Shown here: piece after piece, positions 13,260 to 23,306 of the stretch
Layout: each line of letters starts with the position of its first letter
Numbering within the stretch: position 1 is the first letter of the stretch
Assembly (NCBI GenBank): GCA_025060635.1
Contig: JANXBN010000001.1
Location: 753,284 to 817,283, forward strand
Direction: 5' to 3'
Origin: Candidatus Kryptonium sp.
GTDB lineage: Bacteria > Bacteroidota > Ignavibacteria > Kryptoniales > Kryptoniaceae
DNA length: 64,000 bases
Notes under the pieces: generated by a model
What the model was told of the DNA's origin: nothing
Databases searched by the model: none
Seen by the model: only the letters and a program-made list of their open reading frames with translations
Made by a program: the position numbers and the translations under genes

Positions 13260-14054
13260 ATGGTTATATTTCCAAAAGAACATGGTTCTTGGGCTATTTT
13301 GCTTATACCGTTTTTAATAGGTGCAAAAGTTGGAGGTAAGTTTGATATAAAAACAATTCTCTTTCTTGTCTCTGTTCTTTCTATTTTTCTTTCTTATCAA
13401 CCAGCGTTGATGCTTGCTAAGTCAAGATTGAAAATTTCCTCCGAAAATGTTAAGGATGCTATGAGTTCATTTTTGATTTTTATACCTTTTGCTGTGATAT
13501 CGTCGCTTATTTTGATTTTTTATTTCAATCTTTACGGTTTGCTTATCTTCGGTGGGATCGGTGTAGTGGCTTTTTTAATTCAGCTATATCTTGCTAAATT
13601 AAATCTTGACAAAACATATGGGGGACAGATTTTCGCAACAGGTGTTCTTGTTCTAACAGCGCCTTCGGCTTACTATGTTGGTGTTGGTCGGTTTGATCCC
13701 TTGATGTTTCATCTTTACTTTTTATGTTTAATGTTCTTTGGAAGCGGAATTATTTATGTGAGAATGAAAATATCTGCACTTGCAACAAAGAAGGAAAAAT
13801 TTACATTTGGCGAGAAAATTTTCATAGGGCGATATAACCTTGCTTATCATCTTGCGATTTTATTTCTTATTATTGTGCTTTTCATTCGTGGTTCAATAGG
13901 TTGGTTGACATTTGCTGGATTTCTACCTGTGATAATCCATTCAATCATGGGGACATTTATGTTGGAGCGTAAGGTGATTTTCAAGCGACTTGGATGGATT
14001 GAGACAATTTATTCAATTTTATTTGCCATCGTGATAATCATTGAATTTGGATGA
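13260..14054 (+). CDS. YwiC-like integral membrane protein
   Basis: This membrane protein of 264 residues has about eight hydrophobic segments. The N-terminus MVIFPKEHGSWAILLIPFLIG matches the conserved start of the YwiC-like family, in which PKEHGSWA is nearly invariant. The biochemical role of that family is not well established; in other bacteria it is often found near nitrate or respiratory genes. The last 36 bp overlap the 3' end of the convergent archaemetzincin gene. Confidence 0.83.
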   Translation: MVIFPKEHGSWAILLIPFLIGAKVGGKFDIKTILFLVSVLSIFLSYQPALMLAKSRLKISSENVKDAMSSFLIFIPFAVISSLILIFYFNLYGLLIFGGIGVVAFLIQLYLAKLNLDKTYGGQIFATGVLVLTAPSAYYVGVGRFDPLMFHLYFLCLMFFGSGIIYVRMKISALATKKEKFTFGEKIFIGRYNLAYHLAILFLIIVLFIRGSIGWLTFAGFLPVIIHSIMGTFMLERKVIFKRLGWIETIYSILFAIVIIIEFG

Positions 14055-14600
14055 AATTTGCCAAAATAATTTTTCGTAGCAATCATTGCAAAAGTAAGGT
14101 GATTTTATATCAACTTCTTCAACGGAAGTTGATGGGTGCATGACACATAGATAGTTTTCGCAATGTAAAAGTCCAAAGTTATGTCCAAGTTCGTGAACCG
14201 CTTCTTTTAAAAGTCGTTCTTCTGTCAGTTTCCTGTTCTCTTGGAAGCCATATGCAATTTCATTTAATCTAAAGGTTGAAACTACAGAAATTTTCCCTCC
14301 AAGTTGTGCTTCACCAAATACATAAGTTAAGACAGGAATGAATAAGTCAACTGAGATGACCCCTAAAACTTTTCCATTGAAGTTGTTAAATTTTTCAGAC
14401 AGGATTGAAATTATCTTTGTTGAATTGAATTGGTAACGAGAGCTGTCATAGGCGGAAGAAAGGTTCAAATGATTTGTATTGTCAAGAATAACATCGCATT
14501 TGAAAATTTCTCTGATTGATGGGACAAGGGTAAGCACGAGTGAAAAATCAACTGGATATATCGGAACGATAAGGATTTTGTTTAATTTCGGGGAAGTCAT
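14019..14600 (-). CDS. amzA: Archaemetzincin-type zinc metalloprotease
   Basis: The metzincin zinc site HELGHNFGLLH fits the HExxHxxGxxH consensus (about residues 136-146). It is followed by CENYLCVMHPS, which gives the Met-turn, and by CNDCYEKL. The four Cys (147, 152, and the CxxC pair near 172) match the extra zinc site of archaemetzincins (family M54). The length of 193 residues is typical. There is no signal peptide, so it should be cytoplasmic. It starts 6 nt after the stop of the sigma-54 response regulator and may be the last gene of that operon. It overlaps the convergent YwiC-like gene by 36 bp. Confidence 0.88.
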   Translation of the reverse strand: MTSPKLNKILIVPIYPVDFSLVLTLVPSIREIFKCDVILDNTNHLNLSSAYDSSRYQFNSTKIISILSEKFNNFNGKVLGVISVDLFIPVLTYVFGEAQLGGKISVVSTFRLNEIAYGFQENRKLTEERLLKEAVHELGHNFGLLHCENYLCVMHPSTSVEEVDIKSPYFCNDCYEKLFWQISSKFNDYHDGK

Positions 14601-14606
14601 TGATTT

Positions 14607-15956
14607 TCAAGTGTTTCTGTCTCTTCTCAGATTGTATTTTTCAATTTTATTATAAAGCGTGACTCTGTCTATGCCAAGTATTTTTGCAGCTTGTGTTATG
14701 TTCCAATTTGTTTTGTTTAAAATTTTAAGTATGTGTGCTTTTTCAACTGCTTCAAGCGTTTCATTTTCAGGTTGTTCTTCTTCAATTGGATGAATGGGCA
14801 GATCCTGAGGAAGAATTGCAGGCGGTTTTGCAAGAACCATTGCTCTTTCAATTGCATTTTTGAGTTCTCTTACATTTCCTGGCCAGTCGTATCTTATCAG
14901 CATATCCATTGCTTCTGGCGAAATTTCTGTTATCGGTTTATGCATCATTGTTGCATATTTTTTTAGGTAGTAATTTGCTATCAATGGTATATCGGATCTT
15001 CTTTCTCTCAATGGAGGGATGAAAATTGTAAATACATTAAGTCGGTAATATAGGTCTTCTCTAAATTTCCCCTCTTTCACGGCTTGCTCAAGGTTACAGT
15101 TTGTTGCGCAGATAACTCTGAAATCACTCGTTATCGTTTCATTACCTCCAATTCTTGTGAATTGTTTCGTTTCAAGGACTCGCAAGAGTTGAATTTGCAT
15201 TTTTAAGCTTATTGTTCCAATCTCATCTAAGAAAATTGTTCCGCCGTCTGCTATTTCAAACTTTCCTTTTCTTCTGTAGAGTGCATCTGTGAAGGCGCCT
15301 TTTTCATGTCCGAAAAGTTCGCTTTCAAGTAATGTATCGGGGACGGCTCCGCAATTTACTGAAACGAATGGGAAATATCTTCTTGGGCTGTGTGCGTGAA
15401 TTAATCGTGCAACAAGTTCTTTTCCTGTTCCGCTTTCTCCTCTTATCATTACAGTTGTATTTGTTGGAGCGACAGTTTTCGCAAGTTCAATTACTTTTTT
15501 AATTTGGGGGCTTTCTCCGATAAGTTCTTCCCCCATGATAAGTTCTGAAATATGCTCGCGCAGTTTTATATGCTCATCTGTTAGTTTTTTATGTTTGAGC
15601 ACATTCTTGACAAGATGCGAAAGATAGTCTGGGTCAATCGGCTTTGTAATGTAGTCATAAGCACCTTCTTTAAGTGCTTGAACAGCGGTGTCAACTGAAG
15701 CAAAGGCTGTAATTATAATGATTATTGCGTTTGGGTCAATTTCTTTTATTCTCTTTTGAAGTTCAAGGCCGTTCATTCCAGGCATTTTAATGTCAATAAA
15801 AATTATATCCCAAGGTCCTTCGTTCATCATTTTTAATGCTTGAGCTGCGTTTTCCGCTGTTCCGACTTTATAGCCATCTTGCATAAACCATTTGGAGAGG
15901 GAATCCCTAACTACGAATTCATCGTCAACGATTAAAATACTGAATTTCTGTGTCAT
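14607..15956 (-). CDS. NtrC-family sigma-54 response regulator
   Basis: This is a three-domain activator of 449 residues. The receiver domain (about 5-120) has the acidic pair DDE at 11-13, phosphorylation site D55 in FIDIKMPG, and Lys in YITKPID. The AAA+ domain has Walker A GESGTGKE, the sigma-54 contact loop as GAFTDA (consensus GAFTGA) and Walker B GGTIFLDEIG. The Fis-type helix-turn-helix is ILNKTNWNITQAAKILGIDRVTLYNKIEKYNL. It overlaps the upstream histidine kinase gene by 32 nt, so they form a cognate pair. Likely targets are the sigma-54 promoters at 17590-17605 and 21014-21029. Confidence 0.94.
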   Translation of the reverse strand: MTQKFSILIVDDEFVVRDSLSKWFMQDGYKVGTAENAAQALKMMNEGPWDIIFIDIKMPGMNGLELQKRIKEIDPNAIIIIITAFASVDTAVQALKEGAYDYITKPIDPDYLSHLVKNVLKHKKLTDEHIKLREHISELIMGEELIGESPQIKKVIELAKTVAPTNTTVMIRGESGTGKELVARLIHAHSPRRYFPFVSVNCGAVPDTLLESELFGHEKGAFTDALYRRKGKFEIADGGTIFLDEIGTISLKMQIQLLRVLETKQFTRIGGNETITSDFRVICATNCNLEQAVKEGKFREDLYYRLNVFTIFIPPLRERRSDIPLIANYYLKKYATMMHKPITEISPEAMDMLIRYDWPGNVRELKNAIERAMVLAKPPAILPQDLPIHPIEEEQPENETLEAVEKAHILKILNKTNWNITQAAKILGIDRVTLYNKIEKYNLRRDRNT

Positions 15957-17547
15957 GGCTTATGTTTGACTTTTTTGGTAATGTTATTGTAAATGTTGTT
16001 CCATGATTTACCTTTGATTCAACGGTTATTTTCCCGCCATGTCTTTCAACTATTCCATACACGACTGCAAGTCCAAGTCCTGTTCCTTTACCTTCTTTTT
16101 TCGTTGTGAAAAATGGTTCAAATATATGTGGTAAAATTTCATCAGGTATTCCAACGCCAGTATCAATTATCTTGATTTGAATTTCATTATCGTTAATTTC
16201 TTTAACTTTTATCCCGAGAGTTCCGCCGTTTGGCATCGCTTCAATTGAGTTTATCTCCATCGCAAGGAGCATTTGTTCAATTTGTTGGGAATCGCAGAAA
16301 ATGAAAAGTGGATTCTCAGGAAGATCAATCTCAAGTTTTATATTGTTCATTTGCAAATGGTGAGATATCAAAGCTATGCTTCTTTTTACTATATGACAAA
16401 TATCTTCGTTTTTAAATTCACCTACTTTTTGTTTTGAGAACAAAAGCAGATTTTTGACTATGTTACCGCATCTTGCTGTTTCATCAATTATTATTGAAAG
16501 TTCATTCAAAATTTCTTCTTTTTCGCTTTCGCCAATTTTGCCGTTTTCAAGTTTTCTTTTTAAAAGTTTCGCATAGGTAAGGATTCCTTCAAGTGGATTG
16601 TTAAGCTCGTGCGCAACTGTTGCAGAAAGTTTCCCAAGCGAAGCCATTTTCTCAATTTGTAGCATATATGCATGAGCTCTTTGGAGTTCGGCGGTTTTTT
16701 CGTTTACTTTTTGCTCAAGTGTTTTAGCCCAGCTTAAGAGTTCTTCGTGAGCTTGTTTGAGTTTTTGAGTCATTTCATTGAAGGATTTAGCAAGTAAACC
16801 AATCTCATCGTTGGAGTTAAGATCAAGTTTAAAATCAAGATTTCCGTTCATTATCTCGGTTGTCCCATATGTTAATTTTTTCAGTGGGACATTCACGAAT
16901 TTCCAAATGAAGATAAGCACGAAAATTGAGATCGTGAAAAACATTATGATTCCGCTTGTATATTGAATCTGTGCCAATCGTTTCGTATTTCTGTGAAGAT
17001 CCTTAAGCGAAATCATCACATCAAAAACACCGAGGATCGTTTGTTCCTTTGTATGTGCATGGCAGCTGGCGTTATAGCATGATTCCTCGTTTTTTATCGG
17101 ATTTATCGCTCCAAGTATTTTATGCCCATCTGGTGCATTAAATATACGGGTCAATTGAGATGCTTCCGCTGGGATGCTTATTTTTCCATCGTAGTGGCAT
17201 ATGTTGCAAGCTTCGCTTTCAACAGGTATAACTTTTCCAACTTCATCAGGTATGGTTGAAAATGTTATTTCGCCTCTTTTATTGTATATTCTTATTACTT
17301 CAATTCCAGGTTGCTGTCCGAGCATTTTTATTATTTGGTAAATATCTTCCCTGTGATTGCGCAACATGCTATAGTGTGTTGAACGCTTTATCAGATCGCT
17401 CATTTTTACGGCGTATTCCTTTGATATTTCTAAATATTGCCTCGTTTGCCATTCTATAATCAAGGTTGAAAAAACAATAGTAATTCCCAGGACGAGGAAG
17501 AAGATAAGAATAAAAAGCTTGAACGCAAGGCTCTTGAAGATTTTCAT
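15925..17547 (-). CDS. Membrane histidine kinase with periplasmic heme-c-type motifs
   Basis: The protein has 540 residues. TM1 is at about 10-32, the periplasmic domain at 33-197, TM2 at 198-217, and a HAMP linker to about 272 with a coiled coil. The HisKA His313 is in VAHELNNPLEG, and the HATPase has the DTGVGIP, FEPFFTTK and GTGLGLAVVYG boxes. The sensor domain contains CNICH (114-118), a standard CxxCH heme-c site, and CYNASCH (157-163), a CxxxxCH site. This suggests a mono- or di-heme redox or gas sensor. It is coupled to the downstream sigma-54 regulator and lies next to the Fe-S/NrfD redox module. Confidence 0.9.
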   Translation of the reverse strand: MKIFKSLAFKLFILIFFLVLGITIVFSTLIIEWQTRQYLEISKEYAVKMSDLIKRSTHYSMLRNHREDIYQIIKMLGQQPGIEVIRIYNKRGEITFSTIPDEVGKVIPVESEACNICHYDGKISIPAEASQLTRIFNAPDGHKILGAINPIKNEESCYNASCHAHTKEQTILGVFDVMISLKDLHRNTKRLAQIQYTSGIIMFFTISIFVLIFIWKFVNVPLKKLTYGTTEIMNGNLDFKLDLNSNDEIGLLAKSFNEMTQKLKQAHEELLSWAKTLEQKVNEKTAELQRAHAYMLQIEKMASLGKLSATVAHELNNPLEGILTYAKLLKRKLENGKIGESEKEEILNELSIIIDETARCGNIVKNLLLFSKQKVGEFKNEDICHIVKRSIALISHHLQMNNIKLEIDLPENPLFIFCDSQQIEQMLLAMEINSIEAMPNGGTLGIKVKEINDNEIQIKIIDTGVGIPDEILPHIFEPFFTTKKEGKGTGLGLAVVYGIVERHGGKITVESKVNHGTTFTITLPKKSNISHDTEIQYFNR

Positions 17548-17583
17548 TATAGTCTTAAGCCAATTATTTTATTTTCATTTCAC

Positions 17584-17632
17584 TCTAACTCAAAATTCGT
17601 GCCAGTTTTGAACTTGTTTCTTTTGAGTTAGA
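17584..17632 (-). promoter_or_regulatory. Predicted sigma-54 promoter of the kinase-regulator operon, bracketed by a perfect 12-bp inverted repeat
   Basis: Read on the minus strand, 17605-17590 is CTGGCACGAATTTTGA. It matches the sigma-54 consensus YTGGCACGRNNNTTGCW except for A in place of C in the -12 box. The start site would be near 17578, about 30 nt before the kinase start codon. The arms TCTAACTCAAAA (17584-17595) and TTTTGAGTTAGA (17621-17632) are exact reverse complements, 25 bp apart. One covers the -12 box and the other lies just upstream of the -24 box. Confidence 0.72.
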
Positions 17633-17706
17633 TTTTTCAAATGTTTCTGTTAAGTAGTTTTTTCTTTTCATTTTTGCCCCACAAGATGTTCAAAAAATAG
17701 ACAAGA

Positions 17707-18321
17707 TTAGCAGATCTTGAATACTTTATTTATGATGGAAAAATACCGCTTTGCCCCGAGCAGATCTTTAATTGTTTCAATAACTCTGCCTCCGTCTTGA
17801 AGCGTTGGAATTGAAACTTGATCAAAAGATTCGGTGATCGTTGAGAGAATTTCGTTCTTAAATTCTTTGATTTTGGAGTTATAATACTCTAAAAATTCCG
17901 AATAAGTTAGAAGTCCAGCGATTTTTTCGGTTGTTTTTATTTTAAAAAGCCATCCAGTATTATATGGGTCTTTGTTTGCGATATCGGGATGTTCTATTAA
18001 AGTTTTATTTATTTCAAAAAGCTCGCCTTGGATAGGCGAGCGAATTCTTAAAATTCCATCTCTATATATTGCCCACGCACAAGGGGTGTTTTGCTTAACC
18101 GATGATGGGGGAGCAAGAAATATGAACTCAATTATTGGGGCAAAGAGATAAATAATTGAAGAGCTAAGCCCAACGGTTATTAAATTCGGCTCTGGCTTTA
18201 TCCAGGTATGCGAGGCTGTATAGAATCTATCATCGGGAAACTCAACCTTTGAAAGAATCTCCATAAATCGCAAGGCGACATCAATCGCCGTTATTTGATT
18301 TATGTTTTTTCCGTTGGGCAT
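17707..18321 (-). CDS. Degenerate GcvH-like (lipoyl-domain) protein, soluble, without the lipoyl lysine
   Basis: Residues about 33-130 follow the glycine-cleavage H-protein fold: HTWIKPEPNLITVGLSS (38-54, as HEW...VGIT), RSPIQGELFEIN (94-105) and DPYNTGWLFKI (118-128). The position of the lipoylated Lys (ESVKAAS in GcvH) is occupied by YRDG, with Asp88 at the aligned position, so lipoylation is not expected. A helical C-terminal extension (130-204) ends in VSIPTLQDGGRVIETIKDLLG, which resembles the C-terminus of the second H-like protein at 20305-20967. It is the last gene of the redox operon, 9 nt after the NrfD gene. Its function is unknown. Confidence 0.75.
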   Translation of the reverse strand: MPNGKNINQITAIDVALRFMEILSKVEFPDDRFYTASHTWIKPEPNLITVGLSSSIIYLFAPIIEFIFLAPPSSVKQNTPCAWAIYRDGILRIRSPIQGELFEINKTLIEHPDIANKDPYNTGWLFKIKTTEKIAGLLTYSEFLEYYNSKIKEFKNEILSTITESFDQVSIPTLQDGGRVIETIKDLLGAKRYFSIINKVFKIC

Positions 18322-18329
18322 AGCTAATT

Positions 18330-19517
18330 TTAGGTTTGCTCTTTAAAGACTTCTTTTATTGAAATAACCTCAAAACCTTCGGTTAATAATTTTCTCTTCT
18401 CACTAACTTCAGGTGGAAATATAGGCAAATGTTTCGCTATAAATCTAAACAAAGCAAATCCAAGTGCGACCATGAAAAGAGTCACAGTTATTTCAGTCCA
18501 CTTCGGGAAATAATTAGCTTGCGTGTAATTTTCAAGCGCCGTAATGCTAACATTTAATCTATTGAGAATAAAGCCGAGGACTGTAATAAGCTGCGCAATA
18601 AATAATCCTTTTTTACTGCTTCTTATCCGTGAATTTGCAAGAAGTATTATTGGCAAGATTACTCCAAACGCAAACTCAATCCAAAACATTATCGCTTCAT
18701 AGTTCAGCGTGAAGATATAACTAAAGAGATTATACTTTATTATGTCTTGGATTTTTAAGACAAGATAAACCATCAATGCAACAGCGGTGACTTTTGCTAG
18801 CTTTGAGAGTATGTGAATTTCTATTTCTCTTTTAAAAGCTCTGGAACTTAAATATGATTCAATTGTGACCATTGCAGGACCAACAGCAACCGCTGAAAGG
18901 AAGAAGAGATATGGCAAGTTGCTTGAGTACCAGATCGGGTAAAGTTTTTCTGGAACGATTAAATATAATGAGCCCAATGAGGATTGGTGAAGTGTTGATA
19001 ATATAACACCTGCAACGACTAGGGGGATAGTTAAACTTTTTATTATCTTTTGTGGTTTTTCAAGTTTGAATTTCTGAAAAATGAACGGACTAAATTCAAG
19101 TGCAAGGACGGTTGTATAAAGCATAACACACCATGCTACCTCAAACATAACTGATTCTGGGTTCCACATTATTATGGGATGCCATATGTTCCATGGTTTT
19201 CCAAGATCAAAGAGAAGAGCAATGATAACGAGAAGATATCCGAGAAATGCGGTTAAAATTGCGGATGGAAGAATTGATTTATATTCTTCAAGGTTGAAAA
19301 TATAAACTGCAGCAGCTATGACAAATCCACCTGCTGCAAGTCCAACGCCACAAAGGACATCAAATCCAATCCATAAACCCCAGGGGAACTCGTCGCTTAA
19401 ATTTGTAACAGCGCCAAGTCCTTTCGTAAAGCGAAGTATAGTTGAATAAATACCAAGAGCGACTATTATCCAGAAAACCGAGCTCCAGAATGTAAGTTTA
19501 GGGATTTTTATTTTCAT
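18330..19517 (-). CDS. NrfD/HybB-like integral membrane quinone oxidoreductase subunit
   Basis: This polytopic membrane protein of 395 residues has about ten hydrophobic segments. The N-terminal part LSDEFPWGLWIGFDVLCGVGLAAGGFV is characteristic of HybB-type NrfD proteins. In that family the subunit passes electrons between a menaquinone pool and the partner Fe-S protein. The partner is encoded immediately upstream with a 4-nt overlap. No hydrogenase, molybdoenzyme or multiheme cytochrome gene lies in the operon, so the electron donor or acceptor on the other side is not encoded here. Confidence 0.9.
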   Translation of the reverse strand: MKIKIPKLTFWSSVFWIIVALGIYSTILRFTKGLGAVTNLSDEFPWGLWIGFDVLCGVGLAAGGFVIAAAVYIFNLEEYKSILPSAILTAFLGYLLVIIALLFDLGKPWNIWHPIIMWNPESVMFEVAWCVMLYTTVLALEFSPFIFQKFKLEKPQKIIKSLTIPLVVAGVILSTLHQSSLGSLYLIVPEKLYPIWYSSNLPYLFFLSAVAVGPAMVTIESYLSSRAFKREIEIHILSKLAKVTAVALMVYLVLKIQDIIKYNLFSYIFTLNYEAIMFWIEFAFGVILPIILLANSRIRSSKKGLFIAQLITVLGFILNRLNVSITALENYTQANYFPKWTEITVTLFMVALGFALFRFIAKHLPIFPPEVSEKRKLLTEGFEVISIKEVFKEQT

Positions 19518-20284
19518 TTTCCGTTCTCCTTTTTGTTGTTTTCTTCCATTTCTTTAAGTTTTCTTTGAAGTCGTTGGACTTCATCTCTACGCTTTGTTAT
19601 CCACCAGATTCCGAATAATAATGTTCCGCCCCAGAAAATGTAACCCGGGATCTTTGACATAATTTGTTCTGTAAATAGAGAAAGCGGAACTTCTGGAAGG
19701 TTAGCTTTGAAGCCAAGTTTCTGCATAGGTCTATCAGCTAGGTAAAGCACTGAAGTTCCTCCAGCTTCTTTCAGTCCAAAGATGTGCGGATAATATGTTT
19801 CTGGATTTTCATTGATTCTTCTTTTTGCTTCTTCAATTAGTTCATCTCTTTTCCCAAAGGTTCTTGCTTCGGCTGGACAAGCTTCAACACAAGCCGGGAC
19901 ATTGCCAGCTTTTATTCTTTCATAACACATATCACATTTTGTGACTTTTGGATTTAGCTTGTCCCATTGATACTTTGGTATATCAAATGGGCAAGCTTGC
20001 ATACAATATCTGCAACCGAGGCACTTTGATGGATCGTATATAACTGGACCAAGGCTGGTTTTTTGAAATGCTCCAACTGGGCAAGCAGAAGCACAGGTTG
20101 GTTTTTCACAATGCATGCAGAGTCGTGATACATAAACCCCATTGTAATCTATGACAGCGGTGTTTTGAATTGATGAAAGCTTATGAGCTTCTGTGATAGG
20201 GTTACCCCATCTTTGAGCACATGCTTCTTCACAAGCATAACAGCCTATGCATCTGGTTATGTCAATTAAAATTCCGTATTTCAT
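19514..20284 (-). CDS. Four-cluster [4Fe-4S] ferredoxin-type subunit with C-terminal membrane anchor (HybA/DmsB-like)
   Basis: Four Cys sets are visible, in order: RCIGCYACEEAC (11-22), LCMHCEKPTCASACP, KCLGCRYCMQACP and KCDMCYERIKAGNVPACVEACP. Together these would hold four [4Fe-4S] clusters, as in DmsB/HybA/NrfC. A single TM helix lies near 212-229 (IPGYIFWGGTLLFGIWWI), followed by a basic coiled-coil tail. There is no Tat signal: the protein starts directly before the first cluster, and an in-frame stop lies 30 nt upstream (20315-20317). It overlaps the NrfD gene by 4 nt. The basic tail after the TM suggests a cytoplasmic C-terminus, which conflicts with the missing export signal. Confidence 0.9.
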   Translation of the reverse strand: MKYGILIDITRCIGCYACEEACAQRWGNPITEAHKLSSIQNTAVIDYNGVYVSRLCMHCEKPTCASACPVGAFQKTSLGPVIYDPSKCLGCRYCMQACPFDIPKYQWDKLNPKVTKCDMCYERIKAGNVPACVEACPAEARTFGKRDELIEEAKRRINENPETYYPHIFGLKEAGGTSVLYLADRPMQKLGFKANLPEVPLSLFTEQIMSKIPGYIFWGGTLLFGIWWITKRRDEVQRLQRKLKEMEENNKKENGK

Positions 20285-20304
20285 TTTTAAACCAGATTTA
20301 ATTT

Positions 20305-20967
20305 TTAAATGCGTTTAATAAATTCTTTTTCAAATTTTTCCCAAGTTTTTTCATCAACATTTTGTAAAACTCCTTTTATCACGAGCCCACCGTCCACAAG
20401 CGTTGGCTCTGGTGAAAACTTCGGCGCTTCTATACTTATAAATTCTCTAAATCTTTTTATCTCATTTCTCAACCATTGCGAGGCTTCGTTTCCAATTAAG
20501 AGATTTTTTAGCTCCGATGATACATCTTCAGGTTCAATCATAACAATCCAACCATTGAAATATGGATCATTTAAAATTGTTTCTGGTGATTCAAGTATTG
20601 ATGGATTAATTTCCGTGATTTTTCCGTTAATCGGAGAGATAAAGGTAAGAGTTCGTTCACCTTGTTTAATTTTGAAAAGTGGATCTCCTTTTTTGATCTT
20701 CTCTCCTACGGGTAGAACTTCAATAGCATCAATTTTTCCTGTCACTTTTGAAATGAAATCATCAACTCCGACATAAACCTTACCAGAAAATAGAAGCTCA
20801 AGCCATGTGTGAGCTTTGCTGAAGAAATAGCCACGGGGTAAGACAAAACTTTCAGGACTTAACATAACTTGTGGTTGATAAATCTCCCGCTTTTTATGTG
20901 CCCTCTGGATTAGAAGGTCAATTGCTATGCAAGTTAGAATTGTTGCTATTACGAAAAGAGCTACCAT
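20305..20967 (-). CDS. Membrane-anchored degenerate GcvH-like protein, without the lipoyl lysine
   Basis: An N-terminal TM helix (2-20) is followed by QRAHKKR, which places the rest in the cytoplasm by the positive-inside rule. Residues 47-145 have the H-protein fold: KAHTWLELLFSGKVYVGVDDF, SPINGKITEIN and NDPYFNGWIVMI (133-144). The lipoyl-Lys position aligns with Glu104 in KQGERTLTF, so it should not carry lipoate. The C-terminal region has PTLVDGGLVIKGVL, similar to TLQDGGRVIETI in the other H-like protein. It is the first gene of the Fe-S/NrfD operon and has a predicted sigma-54 promoter 35 nt ahead. Confidence 0.77.
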   Translation of the reverse strand: MVALFVIATILTCIAIDLLIQRAHKKREIYQPQVMLSPESFVLPRGYFFSKAHTWLELLFSGKVYVGVDDFISKVTGKIDAIEVLPVGEKIKKGDPLFKIKQGERTLTFISPINGKITEINPSILESPETILNDPYFNGWIVMIEPEDVSSELKNLLIGNEASQWLRNEIKRFREFISIEAPKFSPEPTLVDGGLVIKGVLQNVDEKTWEKFEKEFIKRI

Positions 20968-21013
20968 GATATGTTCTCCAAATTTTTGTTTTTGTTTTCA
21001 CATTTATTATATC

Positions 21014-21029
21014 ACAAATAAAGTGCCAA
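21014..21029 (-). promoter_or_regulatory. Predicted sigma-54 promoter of the H-like/Fe-S/NrfD operon
   Basis: Read on the minus strand, 21029-21014 is TTGGCACTTTATTTGT. The -24 box TTGGCAC is perfect and the -12 box is TTTGT instead of TTTGC, with the correct GG-to-G spacing. The start site would be near 21002, 35 nt upstream of the first gene. Two identical palindromes lie about 100 and 190 bp further upstream, the usual distance for an activator's enhancer sites. Confidence 0.65.
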
Positions 21030-21103
21030 TGTTTGGCGAGAGATTTTTGTGCTTGAATTTCAATCTATATTCTCGTTGCGGAGCGAATGTGAAATTTGCA
21101 ACC

Positions 21104-21208
21104 GTTGAAATTTTCAATAGTCAATCTTGGTAGTGGTGTAAAATTTTTTGATTTATAGATTTTTGATGGTGTTGAAAAATTTATCAGTATATTGTTGAAA
21201 TTTTCAAT
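21104..21208. repeat. Two identical palindromic boxes, candidate activator enhancer sites
   Basis: GTTGAAATTTTCAAT occurs at 21104-21118 and again at 21194-21208, 90 bp apart. Its core TTGAAA-T-TTTCAA is a perfect palindrome around one base. Relative to the predicted sigma-54 start near 21002, the boxes sit at about -102 to -116 and -192 to -206. NtrC-type proteins normally bind dyads at such distances. The neighbouring regulator (14607-15956) is the natural candidate, but this is not shown. Confidence 0.5.
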
Positions 21209-21365
21209 TGTGTGGTTGTCGTTTTTATTGATTTTTGAAAGACGGATAATTCAAACCAGCGACAGCGGAAGTTGTTTTTTCTTATTGGTTATCAAAGATG
21301 GGAGCATAGTATGATGCTAAATTGATTTGAAATTTTTATTTTTGGCTTTTGCTACCGTTTTTGGC

Positions 21366-21394
21366 TTGCTTATAAGCGTTTTTTTGTTTATATT
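21366..21394 (+). promoter_or_regulatory. Housekeeping promoter of the yceD-rpmF-lipid operon
   Basis: TTGCTT (21366-21371), 17 bp, TATATT (21389-21394) places the start near 21401, about 20 nt ahead of yceD. The arrangement TTG-N20-TATATTT is shared with the promoters of crtI and tRNA-Cys in this window. Confidence 0.55.
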
Positions 21395-21421
21395 TCTACC
21401 AAAATTTTTAATAAAGAACGG

Positions 21422-21961
21422 ATGAATTCTTTAATGAAGATTAACATTTCAAAGCTGTCCGATGGGGAGCATTTTTATACATTTATAGTGAAACCATCGG
21501 ACTTAGAATTGGATGAAAAAAGATTCAACAAGCCCGTTTATGTTGATGCGACGCTTGAAAAATCAAAGCGACAGCTCTTTCTAAGAGCTAATGTTTACAC
21601 AGTTGGAAGGTTTCAATGTGATAGATGTATTGAAGATTTTGATATGGTTCTTGAAAACAGTTACAGGATGTATTATGTTTATAGCGAAGAAGAGTCAAAA
21701 AAATATGAACCTGAAGAAGTGGTCGTGATAACACCGGAGACAAACGAGATTGACATCTCGGATGATGTTAGACAGATGGTTTTACTTTCTGTTCCCATGA
21801 AGTTGCTTTGTTATGAAGATTGCCTTGGGCTTTGTCAAAGATGTGGGAAAAATTTAAACTTTGAAACATGCACCTGTAAAGTTGAGGCGATAGATCCACG
21901 CTGGGCTCCTCTTTTAAAACTTATGGAAAGAGAAAGTTTAGGAAATGAAACAGAAAATTAA
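21422..21961 (+). CDS. YceD/DUF177 family protein
   Basis: This 179-residue protein of the DUF177 (YceD) family is almost always found directly upstream of rpmF, as here, and is linked to 23S rRNA maturation in the literature. Residues FQCDRCIEDFDM carry a CxxC pair, and the C-terminal part carries CYEDCLGLCQRCGKNLNFETCTC, which looks like a zinc site. The family core EIDISDDVRQMVLLSVPMKLLC is clear. There are ATG codons at 21422 and at 21434; the second lies just before KINISKL and could also be the start. rpmF follows after 18 nt. Confidence 0.88.
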   Translation: MNSLMKINISKLSDGEHFYTFIVKPSDLELDEKRFNKPVYVDATLEKSKRQLFLRANVYTVGRFQCDRCIEDFDMVLENSYRMYYVYSEEESKKYEPEEVVVITPETNEIDISDDVRQMVLLSVPMKLLCYEDCLGLCQRCGKNLNFETCTCKVEAIDPRWAPLLKLMERESLGNETEN

Positions 21962-21979
21962 TCATGAGGTGATTTAACC

Positions 21980-22159
21980 ATGCCAAATCCAAAGCGAAGA
22001 CATTCAAGGTCGCGCAGAGATAAGAGAAGAGCAAATTACAAACCTACAGCGCCAAATTTGAGCGAATGTCCGCAATGCCACGAACCAAAGCTTCCACATC
22101 GTGCCTGTCCAAAATGCGGATACTACCATGGTAGAACCGTCATAGTTCCAAAGGAGTAA
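21980..22159 (+). CDS. rpmF: Ribosomal protein L32
   Basis: A 59-residue basic protein begins MPNPKRRHSRSRRDKRRANY, the standard L32 start. It has the zinc-ribbon Cys pairs CPQCHEPKLPHRACPKCGYY and ends HGRTVIVPKE. A good ribosome site (GAGGTG) precedes the ATG. The order yceD-rpmF-plsX-fabH is the classical bacterial arrangement that links ribosome and lipid synthesis. Confidence 0.97.
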   Translation: MPNPKRRHSRSRRDKRRANYKPTAPNLSECPQCHEPKLPHRACPKCGYYHGRTVIVPKE

Positions 22160-22187
22160 AGAAAAGTCAATTTTTTAACTTTTAAAA

Positions 22188-22227
22188 AGGTTGGGGTAAG
22201 ATAGATATTTTATCAAAGCCCCAGCCT
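22188..22227 (+). terminator. Hairpin between rpmF and plsX (attenuator or terminator)
   Basis: AGGTTGGGG (22188-22196) pairs with CCCCAGCCT (22219-22227) through nine positions, one of them G-T, around a 22-nt loop. An AT-rich stretch with a run of five T follows. It could reduce read-through from the ribosomal gene into plsX. The long loop makes it weaker than the other terminators in the window. Confidence 0.45.
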
Positions 22228-22265
22228 ATTTAGTATTTTTAATTTAAACCTAAAAATAATTGCGG

Positions 22266-23306
22266 ATGTCAGCCTCAAATTCTAAAAAGATTAAAATTGC
22301 AGTTGATGCTATGGGTGGAGATTACGCACCAGCGACTGTAATTGAAGGTGCGTTAAATGCTCTAAGAGAATCAAATAATAGATTTTCAATTGTTCTTGTT
22401 GGGGATGAAAAAAGAATAAAAGAAGAATTGAAAAAACATGATACAACTGGGCTTGATTTTTCAATTGTTGATGCACCTCAAGTAATTGAGATGGATGATA
22501 TTCCAACCATTGCGTTGAGGAAGAAGAAAAATTCATCAATTGTCGTGGGAATGAAGCTTCATAGTGATGGTGAGGTTGACGCATTTGCAAGTGCGGGAAA
22601 TACTGGCGCGGTCCTCACAGCTGCAACTTTTATTCTTGGTAGAATTGAGGGAATTTCAAGACCAACAATTGGTAGCGTATTTCCAACTGAATCGGGGACT
22701 AAAAGTATAATGTTGGATGTTGGTGCAAATGTTGATTGTAAACCGCATCATTTGTTTGAGTTCGCTATTATGGGAAGTATTTATTCAAACACGATATTGG
22801 AACAGAAAAATCCTAAAGTAGCTCTTTTAAACATCGGCGAGGAAAAAACAAAAGGTAGTGAAACTGTTTTACAAGCATATCAACTTCTTTCGGAGAGTAA
22901 ACTTAATTTCATAGGAAATGTTGAGGGTCGTGATATACTTCTTGGAAAGGCGGATGTCATAGTTTGTGATGGCTTTGTTGGAAATATAGTTTTAAAGTTT
23001 GCTGAAAGTGTCCTTGGGGTTTTGAAAAGAAGGTTAAGAAATTATGCGGTTAAAAACATTTTCAGAAAATTAACATTTGGATTTCTTGCGCGTGGATTGA
23101 GAAAAGCATTAAAAGAATTTGATTATCAAGAATATGGTGGTGTGCCTTTTCTCGGTGTCAATGGCGTTGCAATAATTGGTCATGGAAGTTCAAGCTCAAT
23201 TGCGATTAAAAATATGATTTACAGAGCGGAGGAGACAGTGCAGAAGAAGATCAATCAAAGGATAAAAGAAGCATTAAAGCATTACAAACATAAAATGGAG
23301 GTATGA
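22266..23306 (+). CDS. plsX: Phosphate acyltransferase PlsX
   Basis: This enzyme makes acyl-phosphate from acyl-ACP for phosphatidic acid synthesis. Family motifs include [12 protein letters not shown] at the N-terminus, [26 protein letters not shown] and the C-terminal [19 protein letters not shown] start at ATG 22266; a TTG six bases upstream is also in frame. It overlaps fabH by 4 nt. The length of about 346 residues is normal. Confidence 0.96.

Follow-up and report, generated by a model that had tools for sequence, protein, structure and literature searches.

The window analysed here is a 64,000-nucleotide stretch of a Candidatus Kryptonium genome. It contains a gap of 454 bp (20968-21421) between a GcvH-like gene on the minus strand, starting at 20967, and yceD on the plus strand, starting at 21422 and followed by genes that by eye resemble fatty acid synthesis genes. 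The features of the gap and of the minus-strand operon are the following, listed in the sense of the operon.

21194-21208, minus strand: box A, distal box of the predicted enhancer, ATTGAAAATTTCAAC in operon sense; exact copy, with a counterpart in all four fetched operons of the same genus
21171-21185, minus strand: box B, degenerate, GATAAATTTTTCAAC in operon sense, 23 bp from A; 8 of 10 consensus positions
21104-21118, minus strand: box C, proximal box of the predicted enhancer, ATTGAAAATTTCAAC in operon sense; exact copy, in a gap block that is well conserved in the congeners
21053-21063, minus strand: element D, a shorter dyad, TTGAAATTCAA; mostly invariant columns in the window, G001, G003 and G004
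21013-21029, minus strand: P1, predicted sigma-54 (-24/-12) promoter TTGGCACTTTATTTGTG, 89 bp from the start of box C; 10 of 12 scored positions
20305-20967, minus strand: GcvH1, GcvH-like protein (PF01597) with a hydrophobic N-terminus (by eye), first gene
19514-20284, minus strand: 4Fe-4S protein, HmcB/HybA-like (PF13247; NF045715 HmcB below cut-off)
18330-19517, minus strand: NrfD-type membrane protein of a quinone module, HmcC-like (PF03916; NF045714 HmcC below cut-off)
17707-18321, minus strand: GcvH2, second GcvH-like protein (PF01597)
17589-17605, minus strand: P2, second sigma-54-like promoter CTGGCACGAATTTTGAG, before the kinase gene; 10 of 12 positions, with 1.7% of shuffles as good
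15925-17547, minus strand: sensor histidine kinase (HAMP, HisKA, HATPase_c) with the c-heme motifs CxxCH and CxxxxCH in its sensor part
14607-15956, minus strand: NtrC-type response regulator (PF00072, PF00158, PF02954), presumed binder of boxes A to C
14019-14600, minus strand: archaemetzincin-family metalloprotease (NF033823 above cut-off, PF07998), last gene of the conserved cluster

The regulator consists of a receiver domain, a sigma-54 AAA domain and a Fis-type helix-turn-helix, the domain composition of the NtrC family, and RpoN is encoded in the same genome (PF04552 at G000:C4, over the cut-off). Its sigma-54 contact loop reads GAFTDA, not GAFTGA, in all five genus members examined, and the exact GAFTGA loop is found in 65 of 85 regulator orthologs. 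GAFTDA is counted among the functional or active GAFTGA variants in the accessible text of Kazakov et al. (2015, PMC4641369), and its activity in VfmH is left open in that of a Dickeya study (PMC10714721). In the locus set described below, CxxCH and CxxxxCH occur together in 78 of 79 kinases. Genes for the FeS and NrfD proteins lie near the regulator in 62 of 85 regulator loci, and an archaemetzincin gene lies near it, closing the cluster, in 80 of the 85, which links a protease with a redox two-component system.

Boxes and promoters in the window

The first-pass annotation had pointed to two identical copies of a 15-mer, 90 bp apart, in the 454-bp gap, and this holds exactly: GTTGAAATTTTCAAT lies at 21104-21118 and at 21194-21208, and a search of the whole 2.5-Mb genome returned these two exact copies only. 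The element had been called a 15-bp palindrome. The perfect dyad is shorter, 13 bp (TTGAAA-T-TTTCAA, with an unpaired centre), since the terminal G and T are not complementary. The description of the boxes as a pair was right in that both copies, A and C, are real, but the count was too low, as the degenerate box B at 21171-21185 makes a third. That such a pair would be unlikely by chance was borne out by the rarity of the 15-mer in the genome and by 5000 dinucleotide shuffles of the gap, none of which contained a 15-mer that was both duplicated and built on a perfect 13-bp dyad; any duplicated 15-mer was seen in 1.5% of them. When three mismatches were allowed, GTTGAAATTTTCAAT was counted 34 times in the window against 19.2 expected, a count on which we do not rely.

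A match of the quality of P1 occurs in 1.65% of shuffles. If transcription starts about 12 bp past the -12 element, the distances of about -102 and -192 proposed earlier for the two copies are correct. A sigma-70-like TATAAT adjoins P1 (by eye). A scan of positions 17300-22300 against Rfam gave two sub-threshold snoRNA matches, taken as chance.

Conservation of the array in the genus and the class

The operon is present in four congeners, in which the GcvH1 gene has 68-84% identity. In three of them the boxes lie at -238 to -241 (A), -215 to -218 (B) and -148 to -152 (C) from the start codon, and the fourth carries a shorter array at -210, -189 and -122. In an alignment of four of the five genus members, the conserved islands of the gap include A, B, C, element D and the promoter. 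The counterparts of box B in the relatives are good matches to the consensus, scoring 9/10 in G001 and G006 and 8/10 in G003 and G004, as in the window. The congener sequence aligned with P1 has the form TTGGCAT...TTGCA: TTGGCATTGTAATTGCA, TTGGCATTATGATTGCA and CTGGCATTTCTTTTGAA in three congeners and GTGGCATATCTTTTGCA in the fourth. The -12 element has GT in the window and GC in G001 and G003.

In all four of these congeners, a divergent gene for a split-Soret-cytochrome-c-like protein lies on the other side of the array (L174:8057-9178, and the same place in L175-L177). Its product has a C-GCAxxG-C-C domain and a type IX secretion (T9SS) tail, the family match having been tested on the G001 protein. 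Each of these congeners has a sigma-54-like site on the divergent strand, 261-352 bp from GcvH1 and scoring 9 to 11 of 12. The window's genome has no divergent sigma-54-like site scoring at least 9, and searches for the split-Soret-like protein gave matches to the common tail domain and no full-length ortholog; with an assembly that is 97% complete, absence of the gene is likely, not certain. The enhancer may thus formerly have been two-sided and have become one-sided in the window's genome.

Among relatives the box has the 17-bp consensus TGTTGAANNNTTCAACA; the form used for scoring, GTTGA-N5-TCAAC, was derived from the genus and the families closest to it. In the DNA preceding 29 GcvH1 genes it was matched at 9/10 or better 43 times against 0.78 expected, in loci that themselves helped to define it. 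We searched for the regulator in 391 genomes of the class, 152 of which were positive at E<=1e-160, and collected loci from 60 of these, hand-picked to span the families. Adding the window, 10 named contigs and 15 regions taken from 14 genomes gave a set of 86 loci, 72 of which could be evaluated; the other 14 were dropped because their upstream DNA was too short. The three-box array was defined by an A-B spacing of 21-24 bp and a B-C spacing of 62-85 bp, and its significance was obtained by shuffling. The resulting p-values are descriptive, as we took the spacing ranges from the first loci and as loci within a class cannot count as independent.

Looking for the box upstream of orthologous operons had been the check proposed at first pass, and the boxes, their spacing and the sigma-54 promoter do recur: an array precedes the operon at p<=0.01 in 44 of the 72 loci and at p<=0.05 in 50. 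The upstream array is also the best-scoring site of the whole locus, or tied for it, in 50/72. Among eligible loci outside the motif definition the proportion at p<=0.01 is 29/50. Scores of at least 23/30 were reached in 6 of 1656 control windows (500 bp, same loci) against 39 of the 72 operon-upstream windows. The A-B spacing is 22 or 23 bp in 39 of the 44 array loci, and the B-C spacing falls into two clusters about one helical turn apart, 66-68 bp in 9 loci and 75-80 bp in 31. In 23 of these 44 loci the stretch from box C to the gene holds a sigma-54 match of at least 10/12, where 0.63 would be expected. Sites of that quality were found in the 300 bp preceding the kinase gene, the place of P2, in 19 of 79 loci. 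In 22 of the 72 loci no array was found at p<=0.05; several of these have a different gene order, and the first gene may be misassigned there.

Beyond the class, a contig of Acidobacteriota (L047) carries an excellent array before the kinase gene (28/30, spacings of 23 and 79 bp), and one of Planctomycetota (L049) a weaker array. Two Bacteroidota contigs (L044, L052) have single strong boxes upstream of a fused first gene; the array test was not significant in these two, where the first gene is possibly misplaced.

For a search across genomes, a sequence profile of the A-B pair was built from 30 loci and run on 61 relatives. In the window's genome the operon site ranked first (E 2.8e-5; next 0.07). 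In 14 genomes whose loci were outside the profile (G007, G008, G009, G010, G015, G016, G019, G020, G023, G030, G039, G042, G047 and G056) the best match lies just upstream of a GcvH1-type gene, the best pair in G020 being the one next to the start. Another place slightly outscores the operon in G013 and G040, and G014, G017, G021 and G031 have the regulator and no match to the profile. The strict pair TTGAN5TCAAC-N(5,9)-TTGAN5TCAA has matches in 13 of the 391 class genomes, from which the window's genome is absent because its box B is degenerate. The single box GTTGARNNNYTCAAC has matches in 53 of 61 genomes; a lone box says little, since the reversed control also matches in many. Family f6 (L035, L036, L040), with no boxes of at least 8/10 within 600 bp, had been taken as a natural negative control. 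It was withdrawn because, by the profile search, a box pair and a sigma-54-like site precede another f6 GcvH cluster (G023, L269) and a pair precedes one in G042.

Proposed control of the operon and alternative readings

Enhancers of the NtrC family act on sigma-54 promoters, as the activating sequences found in pairs upstream of glnA and comparable genes do. The arrangement described here resembles them in its dyad boxes 100-210 bp upstream, its -24/-12 promoter and the receiver-AAA-Fis regulator encoded in the operon. It differs in having three boxes, in a layout of two turns plus six to seven turns and in its own consensus, TGTTGAANNNTTCAACA. The NtrC-type layout put forward in the first-pass annotation is supported by the spaced dyad boxes, the -24/-12 promoter, the conserved spacing and RpoN, with three boxes, a 17-bp consensus and P2 added to it, and the regulator to which that annotation pointed is the likely one. 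Judged from sequence, the palindromes are very probably dimer sites of the regulator encoded at 14607-15956, within a three-box sigma-54 enhancer that drives the operon from P1; boxes A and C are two of three spaced boxes, most likely sites of the operon's own heme-linked regulator. Counting against this reading are the 22 of 72 loci without an array, the poor box B of this genome, the GAFTDA loop of the regulator, the GT at -12 of P1 and the TATAAT beside it.

In the working that we propose, two periplasmic c-type hemes, provided that both are loaded, would report a redox or ligand state to the kinase, which would phosphorylate the regulator. The phosphorylated regulator would form an oligomer on boxes A-B-C, with A and B two helical turns apart and C six to seven turns further on. 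DNA looping would then bring its AAA domain to sigma-54 RNA polymerase, which it would open at P1, presumably in the direction of activation, and the unit under P1 control would be GcvH1-FeS-NrfD-GcvH2-HK-RR-archaemetzincin. Through P2 the same signal could feed the kinase and regulator genes. In G040 these two genes share a contig with GcvH-FeS-NrfD at a distance of about 80 kb, and it is GcvH-FeS-NrfD that the boxes accompany.

The boxes also lie 228-318 bp upstream of yceD in the shared gap, so that they might be operators of the divergent yceD-plsX-fabH-fab operon, for instance of a lipid-synthesis repressor, their proximity to the redox operon being incidental. Five other genus members with yceD have no non-coding box within 400 bp upstream of it, which assigns the boxes to the redox operon; three single matches near yceD in congeners are inside neighbouring coding sequence. 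In G006, moreover, yceD is on another contig and the boxes stay with the redox operon, which the array follows through the class. We consider this reading very unlikely, and give slightly less credit still to the idea that the duplication has no function and arose by chance or from a repeat in A+T-rich DNA. The gap is indeed 70% A+T, and perfect 13-bp dyads arise at a mean of 0.31 per gap in the 5000 dinucleotide shuffles; against this stand the absence of duplicated dyads from the same shuffles, the conservation, the fixed spacing and the control windows.

Somewhat more weight, though still little, goes to binding by a different activator or by a regulator of the CRP/FNR type in place of the operon's own. 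Other NtrC-type proteins exist, with 43 candidates in the window's genome at first look, not all of them necessarily NtrC-type, and TTGA-N5-TCAA resembles FNR/CRP-type half-sites. The gap between FNR half-sites is N6, not the N5 of the boxes. The boxes lie at about 100-207 bp from the start and go with a sigma-54 promoter, a setting in which activators of the FNR type do not usually work. Measured against an FNR/CRP-type operator as generally understood (TTGA-N6-TCAA near -41), the boxes differ both in their gap and in their position beyond -100. The operon's own regulator is encoded within the cluster, and across loci that have boxes its recognition helix (DRVTLYNKI-like) hardly varies. The helix is about equally constant in loci without a found array, with no clear difference by box presence, so that its constancy does not single out the cluster regulator. 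Binding by the operon's own regulator remains the reading that we prefer.

Relation to known systems and further observations

Groups of activator motifs, with TGT and ACA 9, 11 or 12 bp apart, have been described in Desulfovibrio vulgaris, where co-localisation of regulator and sigma-54 promoter served as a guide (Kazakov et al. 2015, PMC4641369, accessible text). The box shares with these motifs the form TGT-N11-ACA with flanks, the co-localisation of the regulator with its target promoter and the small size of the regulons; it belongs to another lineage, and GTTGA/TCAAC is absent from the main text of that article, the part to which the comparison extends. The best-scoring families for the FeS and NrfD subunits are HmcB and HmcC of the Hmc complex of sulfate reducers, but at 247 of 420 bits (HmcB) and 357 of 550 (HmcC), both under the NCBIfam cut-offs, and the present cluster has two GcvH-like subunits, a terminal archaemetzincin and no large multiheme gene. 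AtoS-AtoC and ZraS-ZraR are among the best-matching named families for the kinase and the regulator, with scores far below the cut-offs, and the sensor here carries CxxCH and CxxxxCH.

A literature search of open-licence full texts found neither the regulon nor the box, nor an operon combining archaemetzincin, NrfD, GcvH-like and two-component genes. The type of switch is textbook knowledge; this conserved regulon appears to be undescribed. A broader proposal, to which we give an even chance, is that of an undescribed class-wide and partly cross-phylum heme-sensing regulon, in which a diheme kinase and its NtrC partner would control a quinone-linked FeS/NrfD module with GcvH-like subunits and archaemetzincin, and whose ancestral three-box enhancer would have had two divergent sigma-54 promoters, the other one driving the secreted split-Soret-like protein lost here. 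With the array described, an uncharacterised and widely kept electron-transfer cluster becomes a testable regulon with a named regulator, box and promoter type. The box also offers a probe for other target genes, and through these a way towards what the diheme kinase and the bacterial archaemetzincin do physiologically.

Two box pairs away from the operon are leads to possible further targets only, one before a multiheme cytochrome gene (G029, L270:354-390) and one before a gene for a propeller protein with CxxCH (G033, L266:1209-1250); no convincing sigma-54 promoter or box C was found at either. Matches before a MarR-type gene (L267, by eye) and inside a coding frame (L268) were taken as chance.

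Several families show variants of the layout. In f4 (L183:7189-7203; L198, L199) the sigma-54-like promoter before the kinase gene has a perfect box upstream, starting 26-34 bp from it. In f3 (L034, L037, L039, L042) the sigma-54-like promoter is closely followed by a second box pair, at about -45 and -68 from GcvH1 with a spacing of about 23 bp, a position that would suit repression or feedback. In most f2 loci (L020-L030) the sigma-54-like site precedes GcvH1 by 110-216 bp, and the long leader may hold a small open frame (by eye). In the Bacteroidota contigs L044 and L052 the first gene (L044:3496-5244, L052:3561-5258) encodes an N-terminal domain fused to the GcvH-like part, and this domain resembles, by eye, a phosphate-binding protein.
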